64,000 nt of DNA from Allobosea sp. AAP35 (GTDB lineage: Bacteria; Pseudomonadota; Alphaproteobacteria; Rhizobiales; Beijerinckiaceae): positions 1 to 64,000 of the forward strand of contig NZ_LJHQ01000063.1 of NCBI RefSeq assembly GCF_001295925.1, given 5' to 3'. The notes below the pieces were generated by a model. That model saw only the letters and a program-made list of their open reading frames with translations, was not told where the DNA came from and did no database searches. Made by a program: the position numbers and the translations under genes. Below, in pieces: positions 16,303 through 32,001 of the stretch. The stretch's first letter is position 1; the number at the start of each line of letters is the position of its first letter.

Positions 16303-16812
16303 ATGGGCCTGGATTTCATGACGTGGACGGATGGCTTGGGATTGGCGGGGTTTGTCGTCGCCTGCATGGTGGCGGCGAGTTCGGGGGCGATCTTCAAGCC
16401 CGGCGCCTGGTATGAAGGCCTCGCCAAGCCCTGGTGGCGGCCGCCGAACTGGCTGTTTCCGCCGGCCTGGACGCTGCTCTACTGCATGATCGCGGCATCG
16501 GGCTGGCTGGTCTGGCGCAAGGCCGGCTTTGCCGGAGCGGGGCTGGCGCTCTCGGTCTACGGGCTCCAGCTCGTCCTGAACGCGATGTGGTCGGGGATGT
16601 TCTTCGGCCTGCGCCGGATGGACCTCGCCTTCGTTAATGTTTGCGCGCTGTGGCTCTCGATCCTGGCGCTGATCGTGCTGTTTGCGCCGATCGATGCGCT
16701 CGCGGCCTGGCTGCTCGTCCCCTATCTCGTCTGGGTGAGCTTTGCGGCGTGCCTGAACTTCACCGTCTGGCGGATGAATCCCGACGCATCGCCCCGGAAC
16801 CGTACAGCCTAA
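16303..16812 (+). CDS. tspO: TspO/MBR-family tryptophan-rich sensory protein
   Basis: A 169-residue protein with five helices and many Trp residues: GLAKPWWRPPNWLFPPAWTLLY, WLVWRKAG, NAMWSGMFFGLRRMDLA. TspO binds porphyrins and in Rhodobacter acts in oxygen-dependent control of photosynthesis genes. There it lies near crtB; here it sits at the left end of the cluster, converging on hemC, with which it shares 4 bp. An in-frame ATG at 16318 is an alternative start. Confidence 0.9.
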   Translation: MGLDFMTWTDGLGLAGFVVACMVAASSGAIFKPGAWYEGLAKPWWRPPNWLFPPAWTLLYCMIAASGWLVWRKAGFAGAGLALSVYGLQLVLNAMWSGMFFGLRRMDLAFVNVCALWLSILALIVLFAPIDALAAWLLVPYLVWVSFAACLNFTVWRMNPDASPRNRTA

Positions 16813-17753
16813 GCACCGACATATTTGAAATGGGCGCCGACGCTGCGGTACGACGCCTCGAGCACATCGACGCCGCCGGCGAGCCGCAGCGCCTCCGCCG
16901 TGGCGAGACCGAGTTCGACCGCCTCGCGGCCCGGGCGCTCGTCGCTGGCGGTGATGCGTTTGTCGCCGTCGAAGGAGGTGATCTGCGCGTGCAGATGGAG
17001 CCTGTCGCCCCGCCAGGTCGCGCTCGCGCCGACCGGCAGGCTGCAGCCGGCGCCCAGCGCATGCAGCATCGCCCGCTCGCAATCGACCTCGGCGCGCGCC
17101 TTGGGGTCCTCGATGTCCTTGAGCATGGCCAGGATCATCGGGTTGTCGTCGCGCGCCTGCACGCCGAGCGCACCCTGCCCGATCGCATAGGGAAACAGAA
17201 CCGGATCGAGCAATTCGGAGGTCGCGCCTTCGAGGCCCAGCCGCTGCAGCCCGGCCTGCGCCAGGATCACCGCATCAAGCCCGTCATCGCCGTTGATCTT
17301 GGCCAGCCGCGGCCCGACATTGCCGCGGATCGGCACCACCTCGACATCGGGCCGCAGGCTCAGCATCTGCGAGCGCCGCCGCAGCGAGCCGGTGCCGACG
17401 CGTGCGCCCTGGCGCAGATCGGCCAGCGTCGCGCCGCAGAGCACGTCGCGCGGATCGACCCGCTCGGGCACCGCCGCCAGCACCAGTCCCTCGCGCAGCG
17501 TGGTCGGCAGGTCCTTCAGCGAATGCACGACGATATCGACCTCGCCCGAGGTCAGTTGGTCCTCGTGCTCGGTCGAGAACACGCCGATGATGCCGAACTG
17601 GTGGAATTCGGAGACCCGGTCCTTGTCGGCGATCGTCGCGATCGGATGCAGCGAGAACTCGGTGTCGGGATGCTTCGCCTTGATCAGCGAGGCGATGTAG
17701 TTCGTCTGCGCGATGGCGAGTGGGCTGCGCCGCGTACCGATTTTCAGAAGCAT
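16809..17753 (-). CDS. hemC: Hydroxymethylbilane synthase (porphobilinogen deaminase)
   Basis: A 314-residue enzyme that joins four porphobilinogens into hydroxymethylbilane. It begins LKIGTRRSPLAIAQTNYI. Catalytic and substrate residues are in VHSLKDLPT (Asp) and GTGSLRRRSQ. The dipyrromethane cofactor Cys is in LGAGCSLPVGASATW. All key positions are present, so it looks functional. The start ATG at 17753 places the conserved LKIGTRRSPLA at the N-terminus. hemC usually sits in a hem operon elsewhere; here it is at the edge of the photosynthesis cluster, so it may be a second copy for bacteriochlorophyll supply. Confidence 0.93.
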   Translation of the reverse strand: MLLKIGTRRSPLAIAQTNYIASLIKAKHPDTEFSLHPIATIADKDRVSEFHQFGIIGVFSTEHEDQLTSGEVDIVVHSLKDLPTTLREGLVLAAVPERVDPRDVLCGATLADLRQGARVGTGSLRRRSQMLSLRPDVEVVPIRGNVGPRLAKINGDDGLDAVILAQAGLQRLGLEGATSELLDPVLFPYAIGQGALGVQARDDNPMILAMLKDIEDPKARAEVDCERAMLHALGAGCSLPVGASATWRGDRLHLHAQITSFDGDKRITASDERPGREAVELGLATAEALRLAGGVDVLEASYRSVGAHFKYVGA

Positions 17754-17868
17754 GGACGAATGACCTAGCCTTGGGCCCTTTGGGCGCACTCATGGACGAA
17801 CGAAATCTCTATCAGCCGAGCAAGTCGCCGAGGCAACGTCAACTGCTTTCCATCTCCGGGACGCGCCA

Positions 17869-19422
17869 TCATCGCGCCACCAGCGGAAAGGTGGCGGCGA
17901 TCGCCCAGGCGAAGGCAAAGGCGTTGGCGGTGCCGGCCATGAAGGGATGCCCGGAACGCCGGAATGCCCAGGCGCTGAACAGCCCATAGACGAGGAAGAA
18001 CAACACGATCACCGGGACGATGATCAAGAGGAAGAACAGCCGCTGGAAATCGAGCGCCACCGCCAGCCCAAGCGAAACCAGGAAGGCGAGTTTCGAGGTG
18101 AGATAGGCCCCGCGCGCCGCCCCCGGCCCGCGCGTCAGCCATTCATCGGCGAGGAAATAGATCAGCGTGCCGGCCAGTGTCGCGGCAAACAGCGGCAGGC
18201 GATGGCCCGCAGGCACGAACGCCGTCACGAAACTGTGGACCGGCCAGACCAGGGCGACGAGCCCGAACAGCATCAGCGCCAGGGTGCCAGTGGCCAGCGC
18301 GCCGCGCGACACGGTCGCACGCGGGACGGTATACCCGCGCTGGACGAACGCGAGGCAGAGCGCCGTGAGCACGCCATAGGCGGCGAAATGCACGGCGAGA
18401 TAATCGCCGACGATGACGGGCAGGAAGTTGGTCGGCACGAAGCGCAGCAGAACCGGCGTGAGCAGCGCCGGCAGAACCAGAGGCAACGCGATGCGCCGCC
18501 AGCCCAGCGCCGCCCCCACCGGCGGCGAGGCCGCACGCGGCAGCAGGGCCGAGAGCGGAGAGGCCAGCACGACGACGCCCAAAAGCAGGAGCAGAATCCA
18601 GACGCCCCGGCCATCGAGATCGGGGCTCGCCACAGCCGGCCGGCCAAAGCTCGCATCGAGCCAGGCCAGCGCCTCGCGCAGGCTGACCTCGTTGTAGAGC
18701 ACGCCGACATGCTCGGCCCTGGGGCTGACGGCGGCGCGCCTGGCGGTCCCCGCCGCGACATCGCCATAGGTGACGCCGGCCTCGGGCGGGGCCGGCGCCG
18801 AGACCAGCCCGACGGCGCGCAGCGCCTCGCGGCGCAGGCCGCCCTCCCATTCCCCGGCGATGACCAGGAGGTTGCGCGGGGTTGTGGCCGTCACGGCCGG
18901 CGAGAACATCGAGACCGCGACCGTGGCAGCGACATCGGCGCGGCTCTGGGCGACGCGCACGATGATGTCGGTCGCCATCGAATGGCCGAGCAAGGCGAGC
19001 CGCCCATCGCCCAGGCCGATCGCCCTTTCGGCGACGCGCGCGGTCTCGTCGACCAGCCGGCGCGTCGCGCCGTCCTCCCGAGAGATGCTGCCGGTAAGCG
19101 GCATCGGATTGGCGCCATGGCCAGCGAAATCGAAGGTCACCGCGACATAGCCGGCCCTCGCCAGCGTGACGGCGAAGGGCTGCATCAATTGCTGCGAGCC
19201 GGCGAAACCATGGGCGATCACCACGACCGGGGCGGCGCCACTGCCCTGAACCGGTCGAAACACCGTCATCGGCGTGCCATCCACCGACATCGACTCGGTG
19301 ATGACGCCGCGCCTGGCATCCTGCAACTGCACCAGTGCGACACCGATCGCGACGACGGCGAGGCCTCCGAGCAAAAGCCGGATCCATCCCAAGGCAGGCC
19401 GGCCCGGGCCGCTTATAGTCAT
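17869..19422 (-). CDS. Alpha/beta hydrolase fused to a multispanning membrane domain
   Basis: A 517-residue protein. TM1 is at about 12-32. A hydrolase domain (about 45-255) follows, with the oxyanion segment AHGFAGSQ (70-77), nucleophile Ser148 in LLGHSMAT, and candidate acid and His in VIAGEWEGG and RAEHVGVLYN. From about 270 to the end are roughly eight hydrophobic helices. It lies between hemC and bchG, 20 nt after bchG, and is probably in the bchH-bchG transcript. The substrate is unknown; a lipid or tetrapyrrole ester is possible from context (for example removal of an esterifying alcohol), but nothing in the sequence proves it. Confidence 0.75.
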   Translation of the reverse strand: MTISGPGRPALGWIRLLLGGLAVVAIGVALVQLQDARRGVITESMSVDGTPMTVFRPVQGSGAAPVVVIAHGFAGSQQLMQPFAVTLARAGYVAVTFDFAGHGANPMPLTGSISREDGATRRLVDETARVAERAIGLGDGRLALLGHSMATDIIVRVAQSRADVAATVAVSMFSPAVTATTPRNLLVIAGEWEGGLRREALRAVGLVSAPAPPEAGVTYGDVAAGTARRAAVSPRAEHVGVLYNEVSLREALAWLDASFGRPAVASPDLDGRGVWILLLLLGVVVLASPLSALLPRAASPPVGAALGWRRIALPLVLPALLTPVLLRFVPTNFLPVIVGDYLAVHFAAYGVLTALCLAFVQRGYTVPRATVSRGALATGTLALMLFGLVALVWPVHSFVTAFVPAGHRLPLFAATLAGTLIYFLADEWLTRGPGAARGAYLTSKLAFLVSLGLAVALDFQRLFFLLIIVPVIVLFFLVYGLFSAWAFRRSGHPFMAGTANAFAFAWAIAATFPLVAR

Positions 19423-19442: not shown

Positions 19443-20369
19443 CTAGAATCCCGCGGGCAGGCTGCGCACCGCGATCGCGCTCGCCATCATGCCGAAGACG
19501 AAGAGCGGCACGCCAAACCCGCTGTAGAACAGGGCCTTGCCGACGGGATCGCGCAGGAAGCGGCCCATCAGCACGAGTTGACCCGCCAGGAAGACAGCCA
19601 CCACGACTGCCTCGACCGGCCGCTGCCAGTGCAGCAGCAGCGCGATCACCACGAATTGCGGCGCGGCCATGATCGCGCAGGCGGCGCGCGCCGCACCTTG
19701 CGCCCCGAGCTGGACCGGCAGCGAGGCGATGCCCATCTGCCGGTCGCCCTCCATCGCCTTGAAGTCGTTGAGGGTCATGATGCCATGCGCGCCGAAGCTG
19801 TAAAGCAGCGCCAGCGTCAGCACCGGCCAGGCTGGCAACGCACCGCCGAGCATCACCGCAGCGCCCGTCACCCAGGCCAGCCCCTCATAGGAAAACCCGC
19901 AGGCCGCATTGCCGAGCCAGCCATTGCGCTTCAGCCGCAAGGGCGGCGCGCTGTAGGCCCAGGCGAGGAACAGCCCGAGACAGGTCGCGATCAGAACCCA
20001 GGAGCCGAGCATCGAGGCGACCGCGAGCGACAGCCCGGTCCAGATCATCGCGATATACAGCCCCCAGCGTCCGGGAATCCGGCCCGAGGGAATCGGCCGG
20101 TGCGGCTCGTTGATCGCATCGACCTCGCGGTCGTACCAATCGTTGATCGCCTGGCTCATCGCGCAGACCAGCGGCCCGGCCAGCACGATGCCCAAAGCCG
20201 CAACGAGGGCATTGTCGACGATCGACACACCCGACGACACCACCCCGCAGGCAAAGGCCCACATCGGCGGAAACCAGGTGATCGGCTTGAGCAGTTCGAG
20301 CACGGCCGATGGCGCGGGATAGGTCCCGGTGGCAGCACGTGGGCCCAGCGTGGCGCCGGTCTCGCTCAT
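19443..20369 (-). CDS. bchG: Bacteriochlorophyll synthase (geranylgeranyl transferase)
   Basis: A 308-residue UbiA-type prenyltransferase with about nine helices. The first Asp-rich motif is NDWYDREVDAINEPHRPIPS (76-95) and the second is in LNDFKAMEGDRQMG. It esterifies bacteriochlorophyllide a with geranylgeranyl or phytyl diphosphate in the membrane. The start at 20369 overlaps the bchH stop by 4 nt (ATGA). In most purple bacteria bchG precedes the PucC-family gene and bchP; here it follows bchH instead. Confidence 0.96.
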   Translation of the reverse strand: MSETGATLGPRAATGTYPAPSAVLELLKPITWFPPMWAFACGVVSSGVSIVDNALVAALGIVLAGPLVCAMSQAINDWYDREVDAINEPHRPIPSGRIPGRWGLYIAMIWTGLSLAVASMLGSWVLIATCLGLFLAWAYSAPPLRLKRNGWLGNAACGFSYEGLAWVTGAAVMLGGALPAWPVLTLALLYSFGAHGIMTLNDFKAMEGDRQMGIASLPVQLGAQGAARAACAIMAAPQFVVIALLLHWQRPVEAVVVAVFLAGQLVLMGRFLRDPVGKALFYSGFGVPLFVFGMMASAIAVRSLPAGF

Positions 20370-23300
20370 GCCGCCGCATCCATACCGATACCCTCGAGCC
20401 GGTCCTCGAGCTCGTCGCCGGCCTGTTGAAGTGCAGCCAGCGTCGCCGCATCGGGCTTCCAGTATTGCCGCTGCTGCGCTTCGATCAGGCGGTTGGCGAG
20501 TTTGGCGGAGGCCGTGGGGTTCAGGGCCGCCAGCCGCTCGCGCATGGCCGGGTCGAGCAGATAGGTCTCGGTCAGCTTCTGGTAGACCCAGGGCTCGACC
20601 TGGCCTGTCGTCGCCGACCAGCCCATCGTGTTGGTGACATGGGTTTCGATCTGCCGCACGCCCTCATAGCCATGCTTGAGCATGCCCTCATACCATTTCG
20701 GGTTGAGCATGCGGGTGCGCGTCTCCAGCGAGACCTGCTCGGAGAGCGTGCGCACCGTGCCTTCGCCCCGCGTCTGGTCGCCGATATAGACCGGCGTCGA
20801 GACACCGCCCCGGGCCCGCCGCACCGCGCGGCTGATGCCGCCCAGCGTGTCGAAATAATTGTCGACCGTGGTGACGCCGAGCTCGACCGAATCGAGATTC
20901 TGATAGGCGAGTTCGACGCCGCCGAGCACGCTCTTCAAGAGGTCCGGCTGCTGCACTGCCCGGCCGCCTACGCCATAGGCGAAGCCCTTGCGGCGCGTAT
21001 AGGTCTCGGCCAGCTCGTCCTCGTCCTGCCAGCGCCCGCTCTCGATCAGGTTGTTGACGTTCGAGCCATAGGCGCCCTCGGCATTGCCGAAGACGCGCAG
21101 CGACGCCGTTTCCAGATCGCAGCCATGCTGCGCCTGATAGGCGAGCGCATGCTTGCGCACGAAGTTCTGCTCCGGCGGCTCGTCGGCTGATGCCGCCATG
21201 AAGGCGGCTTCCGCCAGAAGCCTGATCTGCAGCGGCAGCAGATCGCGGAAGATGCCCGAAAGCGACATCACCACATCGATGCGCGGGCGCTGGAGCTGGT
21301 CCTGCGGGATGAGCTGCGCACCCGCAAGCCGGCCATAGCTGTCGAAGCGCGGCGCGGCCCCCATCAGCGCCAGCGCCTGGGCGATCGGCGCCCCTTCTGT
21401 CTTGAGGTTGTCGGTGCCCCACAGCACCAGCGCGACGGTTTCGGGCAGCGGGTTGCCGTCCGCGAGATGGCGCTCGAGCAGCCGCGCAGCCTGTTTCGCG
21501 CCGTCCTGCACCGCATAGGCGCTGGGAATGCGGAACGGGTCGAAGCCATGCAGGTTGCGCCCGGTCGGCAGCACGGCCGGCGTCCGCAGCAGGTCGCCGC
21601 CCGGCGCCGGGCGGATGAAGCGCCCGTCGAGCCCGCGCATCAGGCCCTGAATCTCGTGGTCCTGCGCCAAATGCGCATCGGCGGCCGCCAGTTCGGTCAG
21701 CATCGCCAGCATGGCGCCCTGCGGGTCGAGACCCTGAGCCTTCAGCGCCCGCTCCGGGCTTCCCCCTGCGACGAGATCTTCGATCAGCGCACGGTCGGGC
21801 CGCAGGCCATGGCTCGATTCCGCCATCGCCAGCAGCATGTCGACGCGCTCTTCGGTCGAAAGCGGCTCGCCCACGACATGCAGGCCATGCGGGATCAGCG
21901 TGTATTCCAGCTCCAGCACCGTCTCGGTCAACCGGGCGACGTGCGGTTCCAGCTCCAGGCGGTTCCAGGCCGGTTCGGCCGGCGCGAGATCGAGCGCGGC
22001 CGCCTGGGCCTGGACCAGCACCGCCAGTTCGTCCTGCTCGCGCGTCTCTTCCGGGGACAATCCGCGCCAGCGGTCGAGCGAGCCCTTGAGCTCGATCAGC
22101 CCTCGATAGAGCCCGGCGGATGCCACCGGCGGCGTCAGATAGCTGATCAGCGTCGCCGCCCCGCGCCGTTTGGCGATCGCGCCCTCGGAGGGGTTGTTGG
22201 AGGCGTAAAGATAGATGTTGGGCAGATCGCCGATCAGCCGGTCGGGCCAGCACTGGGCCGAAAGCCCACTCTGCTTGCCCGGCATGAATTCGAGCGCGCC
22301 ATGGGTGCCGAAATGCAGCACGGCATGGGCGCCGAAATCCTCGCGCATCCAGCGGTAGAAGGCCGAGAAGGCATGCGTCGGCGCAAAGCCCTTCTCGAAG
22401 AGCAGGCGCATCGGGTCGCCCTCATAGCCGAAGCTCGGCTGGATGCCGACGAAGACGTTGCCGAAGCGCTCGCCCAGCACGAAGATCGAGGAGCCATCGC
22501 TCTGCTGGCGGCCGGGCGCGGGGCCCCATTGCGCCTCGATCTCGGAAAGCCAGCGCTCGCGCCGGACATGCTCGCCCGCGCCGATCTTGACGTGGACATT
22601 GGCCATGGCGCCAAAACGCGAGGCATTGCCCTCGATGATCGACTGCCGCAGCGCATCGACGCTGTCGGGAACCTCGACGCTGTAGCCCTCGGCCCGCATC
22701 GCCAGCAGCGTCCGGTGCAGCGATTCAAACACCGAGAGATACGCCGCCGTGCCGGTGTTGCCGGCATTGGGCGGGAAGTTGAACAGCACGATGCCGATCT
22801 TGCGCGCGGCCCGGGCGGAGCGCCGCAGCGCCACCAGCTTGTCCGTGCGCGCGGCCAGCACTTCGGCGCGCTCGGCGCAGACATGCATGTCGCGCTGGCC
22901 TTCGCTCGCCGGGAAGCTGCAGGAGCGGGCGCAGCCGGTGCAATGCCCGGCGTTTTCGGTACGGCCGCCGAAGATGATCGGACCGGTCGCGCCGTCGAGC
23001 TCGGGGATCGCGACCATGATCGTGGCTTCGACCGGCAGCAGGCCCCGATCCGACGGGCCCCACTGGTCGAGCGTCTGGAACTCGGCCGGATGCGCCGCGA
23101 TATAGGGCACGTCGAGCCGCGCCAGGACTTCCTGCGCGGCGTGTGAATCATTATAGGCCGGCCCGCCGACCAGCGAGAACCCGGTCAGCGAGACCAGCGC
23201 GTCGATGACAGGGCGGCCGTTCCTGAAGAAGAAGGCGTCGATCGCCTCGCGCGCATCGAGCCCCGTGGCGAAGACCGGCAGGACATTGAGGCCGCGTGCC

Positions 23301-24157
23301 TCGAACGAGCGGATCACGCCATCGTAATGGGCGGAATTCCCGGCCAGCACATAGGAGCGCAGCACCAGCAGCCCGACCGTGCCCTTGGCACCGGCCCGCA
23401 CCGGCAGCTTGTCCGCCTCGGCGCTGACACGGCCCGGCATGGCCGGGTGATAGACGCCCGTTTCGGGATATGCGGCCGGCTTGCCGACCTTCAGCGTGCC
23501 GCGCAGGACGCGCCTTTCGCCATCGGCATAGCGATCGACGAGGAAGCGCACGAGATTGGCGATGTTCTCTTCCGAGCCCGCGAGCCAATATTGCAGCGTC
23601 AGGAAATAGGCGCGCACATCCTGGGCCGTGCCCGGGATGAAGCGCAGGATCTGCGGCAGCCGGCGCAGCATCTTCATCTGGCTGGCACCGCCGCCGGCCG
23701 GCTTGCCCTTGTTGCCGCGCAGCCGCTTGAGCAGGGCCATCGGGCCGCTCGACGGGCCGTCCATCCTGAAACGACCCAGCCGGGTCATCTTGGTGACCTC
23801 GCCGGCCGACATGATGCAGACCATCGCATCGCAGGCGTCGCGCCGTGCCTGCAGCGCCGGCATCAGCGGCAGGAAATGATCCTCCATGAACAGCATCGTG
23901 TTGATGATGATGTCGGCCGACGCGATCGCCTCGAGGCAACGCGCGAGCGTGCGCGGATCGGCGGACCATTCGGATGCGGCGTGAACGCTGAGCTCAAGGC
24001 CCGGCAGATCGCGCTTCAGCGCCAGATGCGCCCGCACTGTGGCGCTGGCGACATGGGTATCCATGGTGACGATGACGACGCGGACCGGCGTGGCGGCGAT
24101 GTCGGCCTTCCGGGGGCGGGCTCTGGCCATCGTGCCCATATCGTCGATTATGCCCAT
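20366..24157 (-). CDS. bchH: Magnesium chelatase subunit H
   Basis: A 1263-residue porphyrin-binding subunit that inserts Mg into protoporphyrin IX with BchI and BchD. It has the N-terminal TPVRVVIVTMDTHVASATVR, the central CobN-like core (FGTHGALEFMPGKQSGLS), LYASNNPSEGAIAKRRG and the end LQQAGDELEDRLEG. The start ATG at 24157 has GAGG 9 nt upstream. The usual place for bchH is between bchB and bchL; here it has moved to a divergent unit opposite ppsR1 and is coupled to bchG. It is full length with no visible defect. Confidence 0.97.
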   Translation of the reverse strand: MGIIDDMGTMARARPRKADIAATPVRVVIVTMDTHVASATVRAHLALKRDLPGLELSVHAASEWSADPRTLARCLEAIASADIIINTMLFMEDHFLPLMPALQARRDACDAMVCIMSAGEVTKMTRLGRFRMDGPSSGPMALLKRLRGNKGKPAGGGASQMKMLRRLPQILRFIPGTAQDVRAYFLTLQYWLAGSEENIANLVRFLVDRYADGERRVLRGTLKVGKPAAYPETGVYHPAMPGRVSAEADKLPVRAGAKGTVGLLVLRSYVLAGNSAHYDGVIRSFEARGLNVLPVFATGLDAREAIDAFFFRNGRPVIDALVSLTGFSLVGGPAYNDSHAAQEVLARLDVPYIAAHPAEFQTLDQWGPSDRGLLPVEATIMVAIPELDGATGPIIFGGRTENAGHCTGCARSCSFPASEGQRDMHVCAERAEVLAARTDKLVALRRSARAARKIGIVLFNFPPNAGNTGTAAYLSVFESLHRTLLAMRAEGYSVEVPDSVDALRQSIIEGNASRFGAMANVHVKIGAGEHVRRERWLSEIEAQWGPAPGRQQSDGSSIFVLGERFGNVFVGIQPSFGYEGDPMRLLFEKGFAPTHAFSAFYRWMREDFGAHAVLHFGTHGALEFMPGKQSGLSAQCWPDRLIGDLPNIYLYASNNPSEGAIAKRRGAATLISYLTPPVASAGLYRGLIELKGSLDRWRGLSPEETREQDELAVLVQAQAAALDLAPAEPAWNRLELEPHVARLTETVLELEYTLIPHGLHVVGEPLSTEERVDMLLAMAESSHGLRPDRALIEDLVAGGSPERALKAQGLDPQGAMLAMLTELAAADAHLAQDHEIQGLMRGLDGRFIRPAPGGDLLRTPAVLPTGRNLHGFDPFRIPSAYAVQDGAKQAARLLERHLADGNPLPETVALVLWGTDNLKTEGAPIAQALALMGAAPRFDSYGRLAGAQLIPQDQLQRPRIDVVMSLSGIFRDLLPLQIRLLAEAAFMAASADEPPEQNFVRKHALAYQAQHGCDLETASLRVFGNAEGAYGSNVNNLIESGRWQDEDELAETYTRRKGFAYGVGGRAVQQPDLLKSVLGGVELAYQNLDSVELGVTTVDNYFDTLGGISRAVRRARGGVSTPVYIGDQTRGEGTVRTLSEQVSLETRTRMLNPKWYEGMLKHGYEGVRQIETHVTNTMGWSATTGQVEPWVYQKLTETYLLDPAMRERLAALNPTASAKLANRLIEAQQRQYWKPDAATLAALQQAGDELEDRLEGIGMDAAA

Positions 24158-24758
24158 GTCACGGCACCTCGGGCGTAGCGGACGCCGTCGCAGGAGCGCC
24201 GGCGGGTCGGCCTTGGGACCGTGATGCCAGCGAAGCGAGGAGCCGCCTCGTCGGACAGCCGATCATCGATCCGGACCGGAGCTCGGTCCTGGCAACAGCT
24301 GCGGCGCCCTGACCAGGGCGACAGGCGGAGGTGGGTATCGGGGTGCCGGCGCTGTCTGCGATCGGCCGGGTAAGCTCTGCACGAAACGTCATGGGACGCC
24401 CCCTGCCGACGACGTCAACCGGACTGCGGTTGCGCTCGCGGCTCTTGGAAGCTGAAGCCAAGCGATGTGAGTGTCAAGTTAGATTGACTATTTAAGACCC
24501 AAAAAATGTAATGTTGACTTTACAAATCCGGAGCTTTCGGTAGGGTCGATATCATAAGGTCCTTCCGGACCAGACGCCTTGCGCTGTAGCCAACACCGGC
24601 CCAGTCGATCGGGATCGTGCCGGGACAACCTGACTGAGCAAAGAATCGCATTGGAGATCGAGGCGGAAGATGATGTTTTTGCCGGTCCCGTCAGATCGGT
24701 GATCCAGCGCGACCGCGTGAATGCAGGCCTTCTCAACAAGGAATGGGCCTTCGTCGCC
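24158..24758. other. Divergent intergenic region between bchH and ppsR1
   Basis: About 600 bp without a convincing gene. The bchH-proximal 300 bp is GC-rich; an AT-rich window at 24466-24530 holds two PpsR-type palindromes. The frame of ppsR1 stays open back to a TTG at 24579, so part of this gap could be coding if an upstream start is used. Confidence 0.5.
24472..24524. promoter_or_regulatory. Paired PpsR/CrtJ-type operators upstream of bchH and ppsR1
   Basis: Site 1, 24472-24489: TGTCA-N8-TGACT (one mismatch to TGT-N12-ACA). Site 2, 24507-24524: TGTAA-N8-TTACA, a full TGT-N12-ACA with matched arms. Centres are 35 bp apart. PpsR/CrtJ tetramers bind paired sites of this form in purple bacteria, so repression (or activation) of bchH-bchG, and self-control of ppsR1, are likely. 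Confidence 0.8.
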
Positions 24759-26192
24759 ATGTCCTCCGGATCGTCACACAACCCTTCGACCGAACAGCCG
24801 GCTGGCGAACTCCGATCGGACGCGCTTTCGCCCTTTGCACGCCAGATCATCACGGCCGCATCAGACATCGCAGTCCTGCTCGACTCCGGCGGAAGGATCG
24901 CATCGGTTGTCAGCCTGCACAGCACAGGCGCCCGCGCCGACTGGATCGGCAGGCATTTCAGCGATGTCGTCTCGCCGGACAGCCAGGCCAAGGCGCTCGA
25001 TCTGATTGAAGGCGCGGCGTCCGAGCCCGGCCGGGTCAGCGAGATCAATCATCCCGCAGAGGACGGCGTGCACCAGGCTTTTCGGTACAAGATCGTGCGG
25101 GACGGCCATAGCGGGGCGCGGTGTCTGGTGGGGCAAGACCTCCTGCCCATCGCGGCGCTTCAGCAGCGCCTCATCGATGCCCAGCAGCTCATGGAACGGG
25201 AATATGCGCGGCTGCGCCTGGCCGAAACGCGCTATCGGATGATCTTCCACTCGTCGTCGGAGCCGATCCTGATCGCCGACTCCGTCACGTTCAAACTCCT
25301 CGAAGCCAACCCCGCAGCCTTGAGCGAGTTCGCGGTTGCCGCCGATCGCATCGGCAAGATCACGCTGCCATCGCTGTTTGCCCCGACGAGCGCAGACGCG
25401 CTGGAAACCATGCTGGCCACGGCGCGGGTCTCCGGCGAGGGGCAGGAGACCGACGTGTCGCGTCCCGGCACCAAGCGCAAGACCTGGGTTCGCGCCACGG
25501 CCTTTCGTCAGGACGGCGCCATCAATCTGCTGGTTCGGCTTCGCTTCGATGCGCAGGAGCCCGACATTCCCGCTGGCGACACGCCGTTGCGCCATTTGCA
25601 CGGGATGGTCGAACAGACGCCCGATGGCTGCGTCATCATCAGCCCGGAGCGCATCATCGTCCACGCCAACAAGGCCTTTCTCGAACTGGCACAACTCGCC
25701 TCGCGGCATCAGGCCATCGGCGAGCCGCTCGATCGCTGGCTCGGGCGGCCGGGAATCGACCTGCCGATGATCCAGGAGACGCTGGCCGATCACGGCGTCA
25801 TCCGGAACTTCCCGACGATCATCCGTGGCGCCTTCGGCAGCGTCGAGACCGTGGAACTGTCGGCGGTCACGGCCTGGGCCGGCGATGCAGGCTCGACCGG
25901 GCTGATCATCCGCAGCAAGGGAGCTCAAACCGCGCTGCAGGCCCCACGCGGCCAGGCCTTGCCACGATCCGTGGAACAGCTCTCGCAACTGGTCGGCCGC
26001 ACGCCGCTGAAGGATATCGTGCGCGAGACGAGCGATGTGATCGAGAAGCTGTGTATCGAATCAGCGCTGGACCTGAGTAAGGACAACCGCGCCGCCGCCG
26101 CACAGATGCTCGGCCTCAGCCGCCAGAGCTTCTACGCCAAGCTCCGCCGCCATGGTCTCGGAGACCTCGACGACGAAAACGATCCGCTCTGA
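24759..26192 (+). CDS. ppsR1: PpsR/CrtJ-type photosynthesis regulator, copy 1
   Basis: A 477-residue regulator. The N-terminal region and PAS domains span about 25-125, 155-265 and 280-390, with a Q-linker helix (QQRLIDAQQLMEREYARLRL, 135-154) between the first two. The C-terminal Fis-type helix-turn-helix is at about 425-465 (LSKDNRAAAAQMLGLSRQ). Cysteines are at 122, 291 and 432; Cys432 lies just before the helix-turn-helix, where redox-active Cys424 sits in Rhodobacter CrtJ. The start is uncertain: ATG 24759 gives usual length, but the frame is open to a TTG at 24579. In Bradyrhizobium ORS278 two PpsR proteins have opposite roles. Confidence 0.92.
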   Translation: MSSGSSHNPSTEQPAGELRSDALSPFARQIITAASDIAVLLDSGGRIASVVSLHSTGARADWIGRHFSDVVSPDSQAKALDLIEGAASEPGRVSEINHPAEDGVHQAFRYKIVRDGHSGARCLVGQDLLPIAALQQRLIDAQQLMEREYARLRLAETRYRMIFHSSSEPILIADSVTFKLLEANPAALSEFAVAADRIGKITLPSLFAPTSADALETMLATARVSGEGQETDVSRPGTKRKTWVRATAFRQDGAINLLVRLRFDAQEPDIPAGDTPLRHLHGMVEQTPDGCVIISPERIIVHANKAFLELAQLASRHQAIGEPLDRWLGRPGIDLPMIQETLADHGVIRNFPTIIRGAFGSVETVELSAVTAWAGDAGSTGLIIRSKGAQTALQAPRGQALPRSVEQLSQLVGRTPLKDIVRETSDVIEKLCIESALDLSKDNRAAAAQMLGLSRQSFYAKLRRHGLGDLDDENDPL

Positions 26193-29249: not shown

Positions 29250-30698
29250 TCAGTTGAGCTCTCCACCTTCGGTGTCGTCGAGATCGCCGAGCCCATGACG
29301 GCGCAGCTTGGCGTAGAAGCTCTGGCGGCTGAGGCCAAGCATGTTGGCGGCCGAAGCGCGGTTGTCCTTGCTCAGTTCGAGCGCCGCCTCGATGCAGAGC
29401 TTTTCAATCACGTCGGTTGTTTCACGGACGAGATCGCGCAGCGAAACCCGTCCGACCAGCTCCGTCAGATGTTCGACCGAGCGCGGCAGCGAGCGACCGC
29501 GATGACCGGCCAAAGCGGTGCGTGCGCCCAGACTGCGGATGACGAAGCCATAGGACGGAGAGCTGCCGCTCAGCGCGGGAACGGCGGAGATCTCGACCTC
29601 CTCGACCGTGCCGAATTGACCGCGGATGATCGTCGAGAAATTGCGCACGACGCCATGCTCGGTCAGCGTCACCATCAGCAGCGGCAGGTCGATCCCGGGC
29701 CGGCCGAGCCAGCGCTCGAGCGGCTCGCCGAGCGCCTGCTGTTTGGTGGTGAGCTGGGTGAAATCGAGGAAGGCACGATTGGCCTCGAGCACGGTCAATT
29801 CGGAACCGATCACCACGAAACCGTCGGGAAATTTCTCCAGCACGCTGAGAACACGGCTTTCGGCAACACTGTCCGACCGACCAGCCCCGGTCAGCGGCGT
29901 CAGCCGAATCAAAAGATAGCCCGCATTGTCCTGCCGGAAGGCAGAGCCGAGCACCCGAAAGCGCCTTGCGCCGGAAGCCAGCTCCACCTCGGTTTCCTCG
30001 GCGCGTCCATTCGCCTGGACGGCTCGCAGCATCGCCTGCAGCGCATCGCCGCTCTCGGGCGAGAGCCCGGCCAGGATCGAGGTGTTCGTCAGCCGGTCGC
30101 TTGGCAGCTCGAGTTGCTGCTGCGCGGCGGGATTGGCCTCGACGACGCGAAAGTTCGCCGCCTCGACGATCACCACCGGCTCGGAGGTGAGATGAAACAG
30201 CATGCGATAGCGGGTTTCCGCCATGCGCAGCCGCGCATATTCCCGCTCCATCGCCTGCTGCGCTTCGACAAGCTGCTGCTGCAGATGGGCGAGATTGCGC
30301 AGGTCGCGACCCAACGCCACAATCGTTCCATCCTCACCGACCTGCATGGCCGAATAGCGGATAGGAACATCGGCTTCCCCCTCGACAGGGTGGTTGAGCT
30401 CGCGAAACTGGATCGAGGTCTCGTTGCCGGAGCTCTCGATCAGGTCGAGCACCTTGGGCCGGCTCTCGACCGATACGACATCGGTCCAGTTCCGCCCGAT
30501 CCAGGCGCCATGGCCCTCGCGCCGCAATTGCTCCGTGCCGAGCGAAACATCGAGAATGATGCCGTCGCGATCAAGCACGAGCGCGATGTCGCTGGCGGCC
30601 GTGATTAGACTTCCGGCGACTTCGGGCGCAAGCCGCCCCAGCCAGCCGGACTGCCCCTTGAAACCGAGCGTAGGAGCCTGGGGTGCGAAGACGTTCAT
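29250..30698 (-). CDS. ppsR2: PpsR/CrtJ-type photosynthesis regulator, copy 2
   Basis: A 482-residue regulator with the same layout as copy 1: N-terminal region plus PAS domains (about 35-135, 165-270, 290-395), a Q-linker helix (LQQQLVEAQQAMEREYARL) and a Fis-type helix-turn-helix (LSKDNRASAANMLGLSRQSF). It has a single cysteine, Cys435 in EKLCIEAALE, so an intramolecular disulfide as proposed for CrtJ cannot form; only intermolecular bonding or modification is possible. ATG 30698 is chosen as it sits near the conserved region; ATG 30740 is an alternative. It lies 74 nt after aerR/ppaA. Confidence 0.93.
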   Translation of the reverse strand: MNVFAPQAPTLGFKGQSGWLGRLAPEVAGSLITAASDIALVLDRDGIILDVSLGTEQLRREGHGAWIGRNWTDVVSVESRPKVLDLIESSGNETSIQFRELNHPVEGEADVPIRYSAMQVGEDGTIVALGRDLRNLAHLQQQLVEAQQAMEREYARLRMAETRYRMLFHLTSEPVVIVEAANFRVVEANPAAQQQLELPSDRLTNTSILAGLSPESGDALQAMLRAVQANGRAEETEVELASGARRFRVLGSAFRQDNAGYLLIRLTPLTGAGRSDSVAESRVLSVLEKFPDGFVVIGSELTVLEANRAFLDFTQLTTKQQALGEPLERWLGRPGIDLPLLMVTLTEHGVVRNFSTIIRGQFGTVEEVEISAVPALSGSSPSYGFVIRSLGARTALAGHRGRSLPRSVEHLTELVGRVSLRDLVRETTDVIEKLCIEAALELSKDNRASAANMLGLSRQSFYAKLRRHGLGDLDDTEGGELN

Positions 30699-30772
30699 AG
30701 CAACGAGTACCCGGTTCCTGCCTGTGACGGGGTGTTCCAAAGGCCTTTAGCAGATAATGGCGTGCCCAATCT

Positions 30773-31675
30773 TCAACAAGGCATCTTTTTTGTCTCGAGC
30801 ATCCAATCGACGCGGTTCACCGCTTCCGCAGCGTCGCGTGCGCCGAAATCGGCTCCCAACGACACGGCCAGGGCGGGATCGGCAACGAACAGGTTGCCCC
30901 CGAGCATGATGTGAAGCTTTTTGTTGAGCGCGCAGGCCCGCACCGCCTTGACCACGGCGGCGACATTGGCCGCGGCGACCTCGCCACTGGCCGAAAGGCC
31001 GACGAGGTCGAACCATTCCGTGCGGACATGCTCGAGCAGGATCGGCTTCGATGGCAGGAATTCCGACTGGACATGCCAGCCGGCGCGCCGAAAGAACTCC
31101 TCGACCACCGCCAGCCCGAAGGTGTGCTGCTCGCCCGGCACCACGGCCAGGAGCACCCGGCCACGCTCGACTTCGGGAGCGGGCGAAATCTCAAAGGCCG
31201 GTCCATAGACCCGCAGCAATTGCTGCAGCCGGGACAGCCCGACGGTGACGTCAACGAAGGTGCATCGATCCTGCTCCCACAGCACGCCGAGATGGCGCGC
31301 GGTCGCCGACAACATGCTGGTGATCAGGGCCTCCGCCGTCAGCCCCCTGTCACGCAGCCCGTCAAGATGAGCGCGGGCCGCGCTGAGCGGCTTTCGCACG
31401 ATCATCTCGGCGAAATCCGCTACATCTCCATCGGTGATCACCATCGGCACGGCCACCGGCAGCGGTTCGCGGACCGCACCGGGCCCGCGATGCGCAAGCA
31501 TCAGGCGTGGAATGATCTCGGTTTCGATGGTCCGGGCGAGATCCATGCGCAACGATGGCGCCGGACCGGTCGGTTCCAGCGGGCACCAACCCGCATCCGG
31601 AAGCTCCGGCAGACCGTTCTGATCGTCGAAGAATGGCGCGCGAACCGCCGATAACCCGCGTCCCGAGTCTGGCAT
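30773..31675 (-). CDS. aerR: AerR/PpaA-type cobalamin-binding antirepressor
   Basis: A 300-residue protein. A helical region at about 85-165 includes GVLWEQDRCTFVDVTVGLSR, and a B12-binding Rossmann-like domain (173-295) has VVPGEQHTFGLAVVEEFFRR with His184 at the axial-ligand position and GLSASGE and LGGN loops. In R. capsulatus AerR binds cobalamin in a light-dependent way and modulates CrtJ. Placement directly upstream of ppsR2 matches aerR-crtJ. The start ATG at 31675 has GGAGG 8 nt upstream; a frame to 31816 is open but has no such site. Confidence 0.9.
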   Translation of the reverse strand: MPDSGRGLSAVRAPFFDDQNGLPELPDAGWCPLEPTGPAPSLRMDLARTIETEIIPRLMLAHRGPGAVREPLPVAVPMVITDGDVADFAEMIVRKPLSAARAHLDGLRDRGLTAEALITSMLSATARHLGVLWEQDRCTFVDVTVGLSRLQQLLRVYGPAFEISPAPEVERGRVLLAVVPGEQHTFGLAVVEEFFRRAGWHVQSEFLPSKPILLEHVRTEWFDLVGLSASGEVAAANVAAVVKAVRACALNKKLHIMLGGNLFVADPALAVSLGADFGARDAAEAVNRVDWMLETKKMPC

Positions 31676-31728
31676 CAGGCCACCTCCCTGAGGCAACCGA
31701 ACGATCCAGCCAGGAACTCTATTGGTCC

Positions 31729-31746
31729 TGTTACGTGGTGGCCACA
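31729..31746. promoter_or_regulatory. Possible single PpsR-type site upstream of aerR
   Basis: TGT-TACGTGGTGGCC-ACA is an exact TGT-N12-ACA 54 bp upstream of the aerR start. The inner arms (TGTTA / CCACA) are less symmetric than at other sites. A match of only six fixed bases occurs by chance about once per 4 kb, so this is weak. Confidence 0.35.
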
Positions 31747-32001
31747 TGGCAGCCAACGGTCTGGAAGGCGGTTCCTCTTGACCTATTACATTGGAGTGAA
31801 GCATGCCGCCGAACACTCCGCAATCACGAAATGACTATGTTTCGAGACAATATTCGCAGGGCTGACGCTGCGAAAAACGAAAAAAAGATCAGCAAAACCA
31901 AGCCGATCGACCGATATTCTGACGCTGCCCCAGGATGGCACGCGGCTGCGGCGCGCCACTCACGACGCCGTGACACCGAAGCTAGCTAAGTGCCCCGCAT
32001 A

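Follow-up and report, generated by a model that had tools for sequence, protein, structure and literature searches.

The hydrolase gene and its neighbors

The window analyzed here is the whole 64,000-nt stretch of DNA from Allobosea sp. AAP35. At positions 17869-19422 of its minus strand lies an open reading frame that begins with ATG and encodes a 517-amino acid protein, an alpha/beta serine hydrolase fused to a membrane part. As an earlier note on this DNA had read it, the frame sits 20 nt after bchG, the gene for (bacterio)chlorophyll synthase (19443-20369, minus strand), which matches NCBIfam PRK07566 with 419 bits against a cut-off of 313 and TIGR01476 with 349 bits. Upstream of bchG, and overlapping it by 4 nt, is bchH for the magnesium chelatase H subunit (20366-24157, minus strand; PRK13405, 2255 bits). 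On the other side, and absent from the earlier note, hemC for porphobilinogen deaminase (16809-17789, minus strand; PF01379, 224 bits) follows 79 nt downstream of the hydrolase frame on the same strand. A single copy of the hydrolase gene was found in the window genome. The closest relatives, 3 loci filed as Bosea (L139-L141), are 88-92% identical and keep the order bchH-bchG-hydrolase-hemC, and 32 further relatives at 35-70% identity align over both the hydrolase and the membrane part. The frame is therefore no product of chance.

A PpsR-like palindrome, TGT-N12-ACA, which we take as the PpsR consensus, lies upstream of bchH (24507-24524, plus strand), and the window holds 10 such sites against 2.84 expected, a number that 0 of 100 shuffles reached. 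Also encoded near the bchH-bchG-hydrolase unit are two copies of PpsR/CrtJ (354 and 446 bits) and a B12-binding-domain protein that resembles the regulator AerR/PpaA; these 3 genes occupy 24579-26192 (plus strand), 29250-30740 (minus strand), and 30773-31816 (minus strand).

A predicted serine esterase without a lid

The earlier note had proposed a serine hydrolase joined to membrane helices, and both Pfam matches and an AlphaFold2 model agree with this. Hydrolase_4 (41.6 bits, cut-off 27) and Abhydrolase_1 (33.8 bits, cut-off 25.8) both match within residues 65-203, and the model of the 517-residue protein, computed from a 33-sequence alignment of the window protein and the 32 relatives at 35-70% identity, has a mean pLDDT of 94.0 and a pTM of 0.92. 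In this predicted architecture, an N-terminal membrane helix (residues 9-35, with a hydropathy peak at 13-31; 19318-19398, minus strand) is followed by the alpha/beta hydrolase domain (residues 40-258; 18649-19305, minus strand), which is delimited by Pfam, the model, and structure matches, and then by a domain of eight helices (residues 272-511; 17890-18609, minus strand). The predicted membrane helices total nine, against the count of about eight in the earlier note.

The sequence passes the curated cut-offs of the alpha/beta hydrolase superfamily and has the nucleophile, acid, and histidine in order and conserved. The presumed nucleophile S148 (codon 18979-18981), the presumed catalytic acid E193 (18844-18846), and the presumed catalytic histidine H238 (18709-18711), all encoded on the minus strand, are each invariant in 33 of 33 sequences, with roles assigned from the motif for S148 and from position for the other two. 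H71-G72, at the usual position of the oxyanion hole, is likewise invariant in all 33, its role being read from motif and order. The nucleophile elbow reads G-H-S-M-A/S, unlike the canonical GxSxG of alpha/beta hydrolases. From these features, the protein is predicted to be a catalytically intact serine esterase.

Among solved structures, the hydrolase domain is best matched by a thermophilic lipase and by feruloyl esterases (Z 23-24 in VIA over 191-199 residues, rmsd 2.1-2.4; for 7q4j, Z 24.2 over 199 residues at rmsd 2.4), and when Foldseek matches are included, the closest folds are lipases, monoacylglycerol lipases, feruloyl esterases, and polyester hydrolases. Between the two core strands where lid-bearing relatives insert their cap, the model holds only residues 171-184, so we regard the domain as lidless; in place of a protein lid, it is probably the membrane domain that covers the active site.

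Orientation and conserved face of the membrane domain

In each of the 33 sequences, the loops and helix ends that face away from the hydrolase contain more lysine and arginine than those on its side, and by the positive-inside rule, we infer that the hydrolase lies on the periplasmic face of the membrane. The N-terminal helix would then anchor and export the hydrolase, which would sit at the periplasmic face of the inner membrane, atop the eight-helix domain. The side of this domain that faces the hydrolase carries D340, Y341, H345, D396 in the consensus (the window protein has H at this position), and R408. Conservation of the helices by thirds falls from 0.66 on the hydrolase-facing side through 0.58 in the middle to 0.53 on the far side (permutation p 0.0002 for 0.66 versus 0.53, with columns treated as independent). 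Among residues of the types D, E, H, K, R, N, and Q that are conserved at 85% or more, 4 of 5 fall in the hydrolase-facing thirds (D340, H345, D396, and R408), and the far side has only D426. We infer from this distribution a composite site, in which the helix domain would close the active site from the membrane side.

A membrane-embedded, periplasmic site of this kind, together with the fold neighbors listed above, is also what would be expected if the protein were a membrane lipid hydrolase. In that case, it would deacylate or remodel lipids of the periplasmic leaflet as the photosynthetic membrane forms or around reaction centers, and its linkage to pigment genes, described below, would reflect nothing but co-regulation. 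We consider this explanation serious, if on balance unlikely, and return to it where the genomic evidence bears on it.

Modeled alone, the membrane domain has a pLDDT of 92.4. Its profile finds no match among PDB sequences at E 5, Foldseek gives none at E 0.001 (best E 0.47), and Pfam matches to this part are weak, the best being DUF6962 (E 0.0011, in 3 of 33 members). Re-alignment of the Foldseek candidates with VIA places it on 6u0o, SpdC, which we take to be a CPBP (CAAX-protease-like) protein, with Z 11.2 over 191 aligned residues at rmsd 3.8 and the next row at 4.2; VIA does no more than re-align such candidates, and helical bundles may reach Z 13 from arrangement alone. CPBP and Rce1-like proteases carry an EExxxR(G) motif, and a D-E-W-L-T-R-G stretch of the membrane domain sits at the EExxxRG position, a register that hhalign chose as well. 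This motif is not conserved across the 33 members (D426 in 32 of 33, E427 in 20 of 33, and R431 in 20 of 33), and PF02517 is absent among the 8 Pfam families matched by any of them at E 1. Membership in CPBP by sequence was rejected, since hhalign of the two profiles (the CPBP one built from 33 of 35 PF02517 loci, selected by a filter that required the motif) gave a probability of 1.4 and P 0.037, no better than the BchG control against CPBP (1.1, P 0.047). The membrane domain against BchG gave 0.5 and P 0.11, and five column-shuffled controls gave P 0.38-0.85. A fold shared with SpdC is possible, and a CAAX-protease-like fold of the membrane part is, on this model comparison, a tentative lead.

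If the membrane part were the working part, the protein could serve pigment synthesis as a scaffold or regulator and not as an enzyme, much like the plant BCM proteins. These are annotated as CAAX-type endopeptidases, showed no such activity in yeast, interact with GUN4 and CHLM, and balance chlorophyll synthesis against breakdown, according to PMC7083845. The structural match to SpdC would fit such a role. Sequence profiles give no support for the CPBP relation, and S148, E193, H238, and H71-G72, invariant in 33 of 33 members, are residues that a pure scaffold would not need, so the invariant triad makes a scaffold alone unlikely and we think the whole proposal quite improbable. BCM may serve as a parallel for the membrane part that is suggestive, no more.

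The hydrolase gene accompanies bchG

The earlier note had suggested seeing whether homologs track with bchG, and they do. In a draw of 199 genomes of the family, the hydrolase gene occurs in 28 and bchG in 59, and all 28 carriers have bchG (Fisher p 5e-18, uncorrected for kinship). Among 297 genomes of the order, there are 24 carriers and 60 bchG genomes, with an overlap of 23 (Fisher p 4e-17, again uncorrected for kinship); the exception, G372, has a relative at 31% identity and E 1e-11. A draw of 299 genomes of the phylum held 6 carriers including the window genome, and 4 of the 5 others have bchG, the exception being a 30% match in G704. Counted by genus in the family draw, the hydrolase is present in 13 of 43 and bchG in 19 of 43. 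In the window's own genus, bchG was found in 3 of the 10 genomes drawn; the hydrolase gene is present in 2 of these 3 and in 0 of the 7 others. As a rule, 5 or 7 first-look candidates, the best few, were scored per genome in these draws, so distant relatives can be missed.

A scan of named sequences returned at least 537 relatives at E 1e-3, of which the best 80 were kept; the others may include non-phototrophs. Genomes were chosen for 50 of these best 80 loci; the search covered 49 of them, and bchG is present in 47. The 2 named genomes without bchG are represented by contigs assigned to Kuenenia (L154) and to Thermomicrobiales (L161). The L161 contig is 5.4 kb long and has a probable bciA next to the hydrolase gene, and both contigs are probably misbinned phototroph DNA. 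Named strains of Rhodopseudomonas palustris, Bradyrhizobium, Methylobacterium, and Blastochloris are among the carriers in the best 80 of at least 537, as are bchG-bearing genomes from beyond the Alphaproteobacteria that are titled Gammaproteobacteria, Gemmatimonadetes, and Longimicrobiales. Homologs widespread in non-phototrophs, a pattern that the earlier note had set against its own proposal, were not found in the draws searched. The link between the hydrolase and phototrophy, as computed from these genomes, is strongly supported, and comparative genomics makes it far firmer than the earlier note could.

Physical linkage does not explain this association, since many carriers hold the two genes far apart or on different contigs. 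Among the 28 family carriers, bchG and the hydrolase gene lie within 7 kb of each other in 10, at 21 kb in one, and on different contigs in 15, and they are 701 kb apart in G084 and 2.9 Mb apart, in the coordinates of one contig, in G020 (distances were computed a second time for 14 of the 28). These cases also bear on the idea that the gene is a passenger that travels with photosynthesis clusters and has no role in phototrophy. Its patchy distribution, in 28 of 59 bchG-bearing family genomes, and its presence in Gammaproteobacteria and Gemmatimonadota MAGs among the best 80 of at least 537 relatives, as if it had moved or been inherited widely, would both suit a passenger. A passenger would not be expected to co-occur with bchG at distances of 0.7 or 2.9 Mb and in different neighborhoods, nor to keep its triad invariant at 35-70% identity, and we regard this explanation as very improbable indeed. 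The same co-occurrence weighs against a lipid substrate, since the gene is found almost only with bchG although lipids occur in all bacteria.

The 31 of 59 bchG-bearing family genomes that have no hydrolase gene indicate that it is not essential for phototrophy. In one bchG-bearing genome (G057, C52:36388-37759; L027 and L030), the copy is split in two overlapping frames, which may reflect decay of the gene or an error in sequencing.

Neighborhoods across lineages

The neighbors vary by lineage, among bchG, bciB (8-vinyl reductase), and bchI, bchD, and bchO. We tested the flanks of the 80 named loci (the best 80 of at least 537, not independent, since several genera recur) for 12 bch, bci, or puf genes. 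One of these pigment or reaction-center genes is present in the flanks of 43 of the 80, and none is nearby in the remaining 37, some of whose flanks are short. Counts among the same best 80 of at least 537 are highest for bciB (22), bchI and bchD (14 each), bchO (12), and bchG (10), with fewer for the others. The gene immediately upstream on the same strand is bciB in 15 loci and bchG in 6; the one immediately downstream is bchG in 3 and a probable bciA in one (L161). The name of this last, NmrA-like neighbor, which matches Pfam PF13460/NmrA, is partly our assumption.

This variety bears on the lipid explanation in both directions. The 37 of the best 80 named loci (of at least 537) that lack the tested pigment genes nearby would be unremarkable for a lipid hydrolase; where the gene is linked, by contrast, separate arrangements place it directly beside bchG, bciB, or a probable bciA, which counts against a lipid substrate.

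The tie to bchG that the earlier note drew from adjacency in the window stands as one of several arrangements, as 9 of the 80 named loci (best 80 of at least 537) have the hydrolase gene and bchG as direct neighbors on one strand. This matters for the possibility that the enzyme is a salvage dephytylase that cuts the ester and returns bacteriochlorophyllide to BchG. If BchG has its active site at the cytoplasmic face, then a simple salvage loop between it and a hydrolase predicted to be periplasmic in 33 of 33 sequences is less straightforward than the earlier note implied. Salvage would suit the position right behind bchG that the gene has in the window and in the Bosea and Phreatobacter loci, and a plant precedent exists in the CLD1/CHLG cycle, in which CLD1 acts opposite the chlorophyll synthase CHLG in turnover (PMC8621299); chlorophyll recycling in plants is described in PMC9066304 as well. 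With the predicted topology, the 9 of 80 adjacent loci, and the 31 of 59 bchG genomes without a hydrolase all pointing the other way, we find salvage improbable.

The gene called bciB in these loci has a relative in plant 7-hydroxymethyl chlorophyll a reductase (5dqr, E 7e-72). At E 1e-60, bciB is present in 16 of the 59 bchG-bearing family genomes, namely in 12 of 28 hydrolase carriers and 4 of 31 non-carriers, so the hydrolase does not go with one vinyl reductase alone. A restriction of the hydrolase to the BciB route was rejected on the same count of 12 in 28 family carriers, and the window genome itself has no bciB.

PpsR-like control of the copies that stand apart from pigment genes was likewise rejected. 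None of 33 stand-alone loci has such a site upstream, whereas control starts have one in 14 of 310 cases (33 of the 37 loci were used, with L168, L185, L196, and L205 excluded for short records or flanks). Of all 79 loci with enough flank among the best 80 of at least 537, 4 have one.

Two further features of the neighborhoods recur. In 8 loci of Bradyrhizobium, Rhodopseudomonas, and relatives (L182, L191, L192, L195, L198, L204, L207, and L212), the gene immediately upstream belongs to one and the same cluster and, taking longest open reading frames, shares 1-52 nt with the hydrolase frame; the member scanned, from L191, is DUF3422. In the lineage of L093, L095, L096, and L097, a blue-light sensor gene comes after the bciB-hydrolase pair, about 0.2-1.7 kb downstream of the hydrolase, and the member scanned, from L097, is BLUF.

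A possible esterase of bacteriochlorophyll

Since the gene is found almost only in genomes that can make bacteriochlorophyll, its product probably cleaves an ester in the pigments or the photosynthetic membranes of these bacteria. Our preferred, though tentative, reading is that the protein is a phototrophy-linked membrane esterase whose substrate is an ester of bacteriochlorophyll or bacteriopheophytin. The co-occurrence with bchG, the pigment-gene neighbors, the invariant triad, the lidless fold like that of esterases and lipases, and the conserved hydrolase-facing side all speak for a pigment ester. Against it stand a Chlorophyllase match below the cut-off, the 31 of 59 bchG genomes without the gene, the 37 of 80 named loci (best 80 of at least 537) without a tested pigment gene nearby, the stand-alone loci without a PpsR-like site, and a periplasmic active site that is hard to reconcile with a short salvage loop if BchG works from the cytoplasm.

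If the substrate is a pigment, then D340, Y341, H345, D396, and R408 may hold the head group of a molecule dissolved in the membrane such that S148 reaches the ester bond. The candidate substrates would be bacteriochlorophyll a or bacteriopheophytin a. Of the two ester bonds in these pigments, our first guess would be the one at C17 (phytyl or geranylgeranyl) and our second the C13-2 methyl ester. Such pigment would be released during assembly or turnover of the photosystem, and the enzyme would act in pigment quality control or disposal. A more specific version, in which a (bacterio)chlorophyll esterase faces the periplasm and has its site completed by a CAAX-protease-like domain that holds the isoprenoid tail or the macrocycle, strikes us as rather unlikely.

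CLD1, pheophytinase PPH, and chlorophyllase of plants are, like the window protein, alpha/beta hydrolases of phototrophs; we know of no eight-helix membrane domain in any of them, in which they differ from it. On the window protein, the Pfam Chlorophyllase family (PF07224) scores 13.3 bits, below its cut-off of 26. PPH acts in chlorophyll breakdown, as PMC8621299 describes.

Among bacterial proteins, BchO (TIGR03056) is an alpha/beta hydrolase linked to bchI and bchD, as is the window-type gene. TIGR03056, with a cut-off of 172.55 bits, is absent among the 8 NCBIfam matches of the window protein at E 0.1, and BLASTP of a 294-residue BchO against the 517-residue hydrolase gives 24.6 bits over 51 residues. 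BchO is encoded in the flanks of the hydrolase gene in 12 of the 80 named loci (best 80 of at least 537), and these shared loci show that neither is a simple substitute for the other.

How bacteriochlorophyll is removed or recycled in purple bacteria is, to our knowledge, unsolved, and this putative esterase, whose triad is conserved and whose gene goes along with bacteriochlorophyll synthesis, would be a direct candidate for this task. The gene itself is apparently undescribed: among the titles and abstract starts listed from the open-licence literature, none describes such a gene, and word look-ups in main texts yielded no mention of it. The word "hydrolase" is absent from the main text of a Rhodobacter sphaeroides Tn-seq paper (PMC5513736). 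If our preferred reading of a pigment esterase is right, the gene would mark a route of pigment quality control or disposal in anoxygenic phototrophs for which we found no prior description; if it acts on lipids instead, it would mark an unstudied part of photosynthetic membrane biology.

Relatives in bchG-negative genomes and on plasmids

The bchG-negative relatives in the genome draws are few and have 25-31% identity. By hydropathy, those of G372 (L138) and G704 (L089) have an N-terminal helix and a hydrolase followed by another seven or eight hydrophobic segments, and this similar layout makes the architecture wider than the phototroph branch. With L138 as the query, 3 of 240 genomes of the class, the window genome included, match at E 1e-10, and membrane-fused hydrolases seem rare in this class.

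Relatives are also found on plasmids. Three Nostocales plasmids carry one at 34-36% identity over residues 35-275; that of Aulosira laxa (L219, 3929-5026) encodes 365 amino acids with four hydrophobic segments after the hydrolase, and the Calothrix and Nostoc plasmids match over the same part. A Deinococcus ficus plasmid has a relative at 29.7% over residues 56-259, and a Palleronia plasmid has one that aligns over the full length at 37%.
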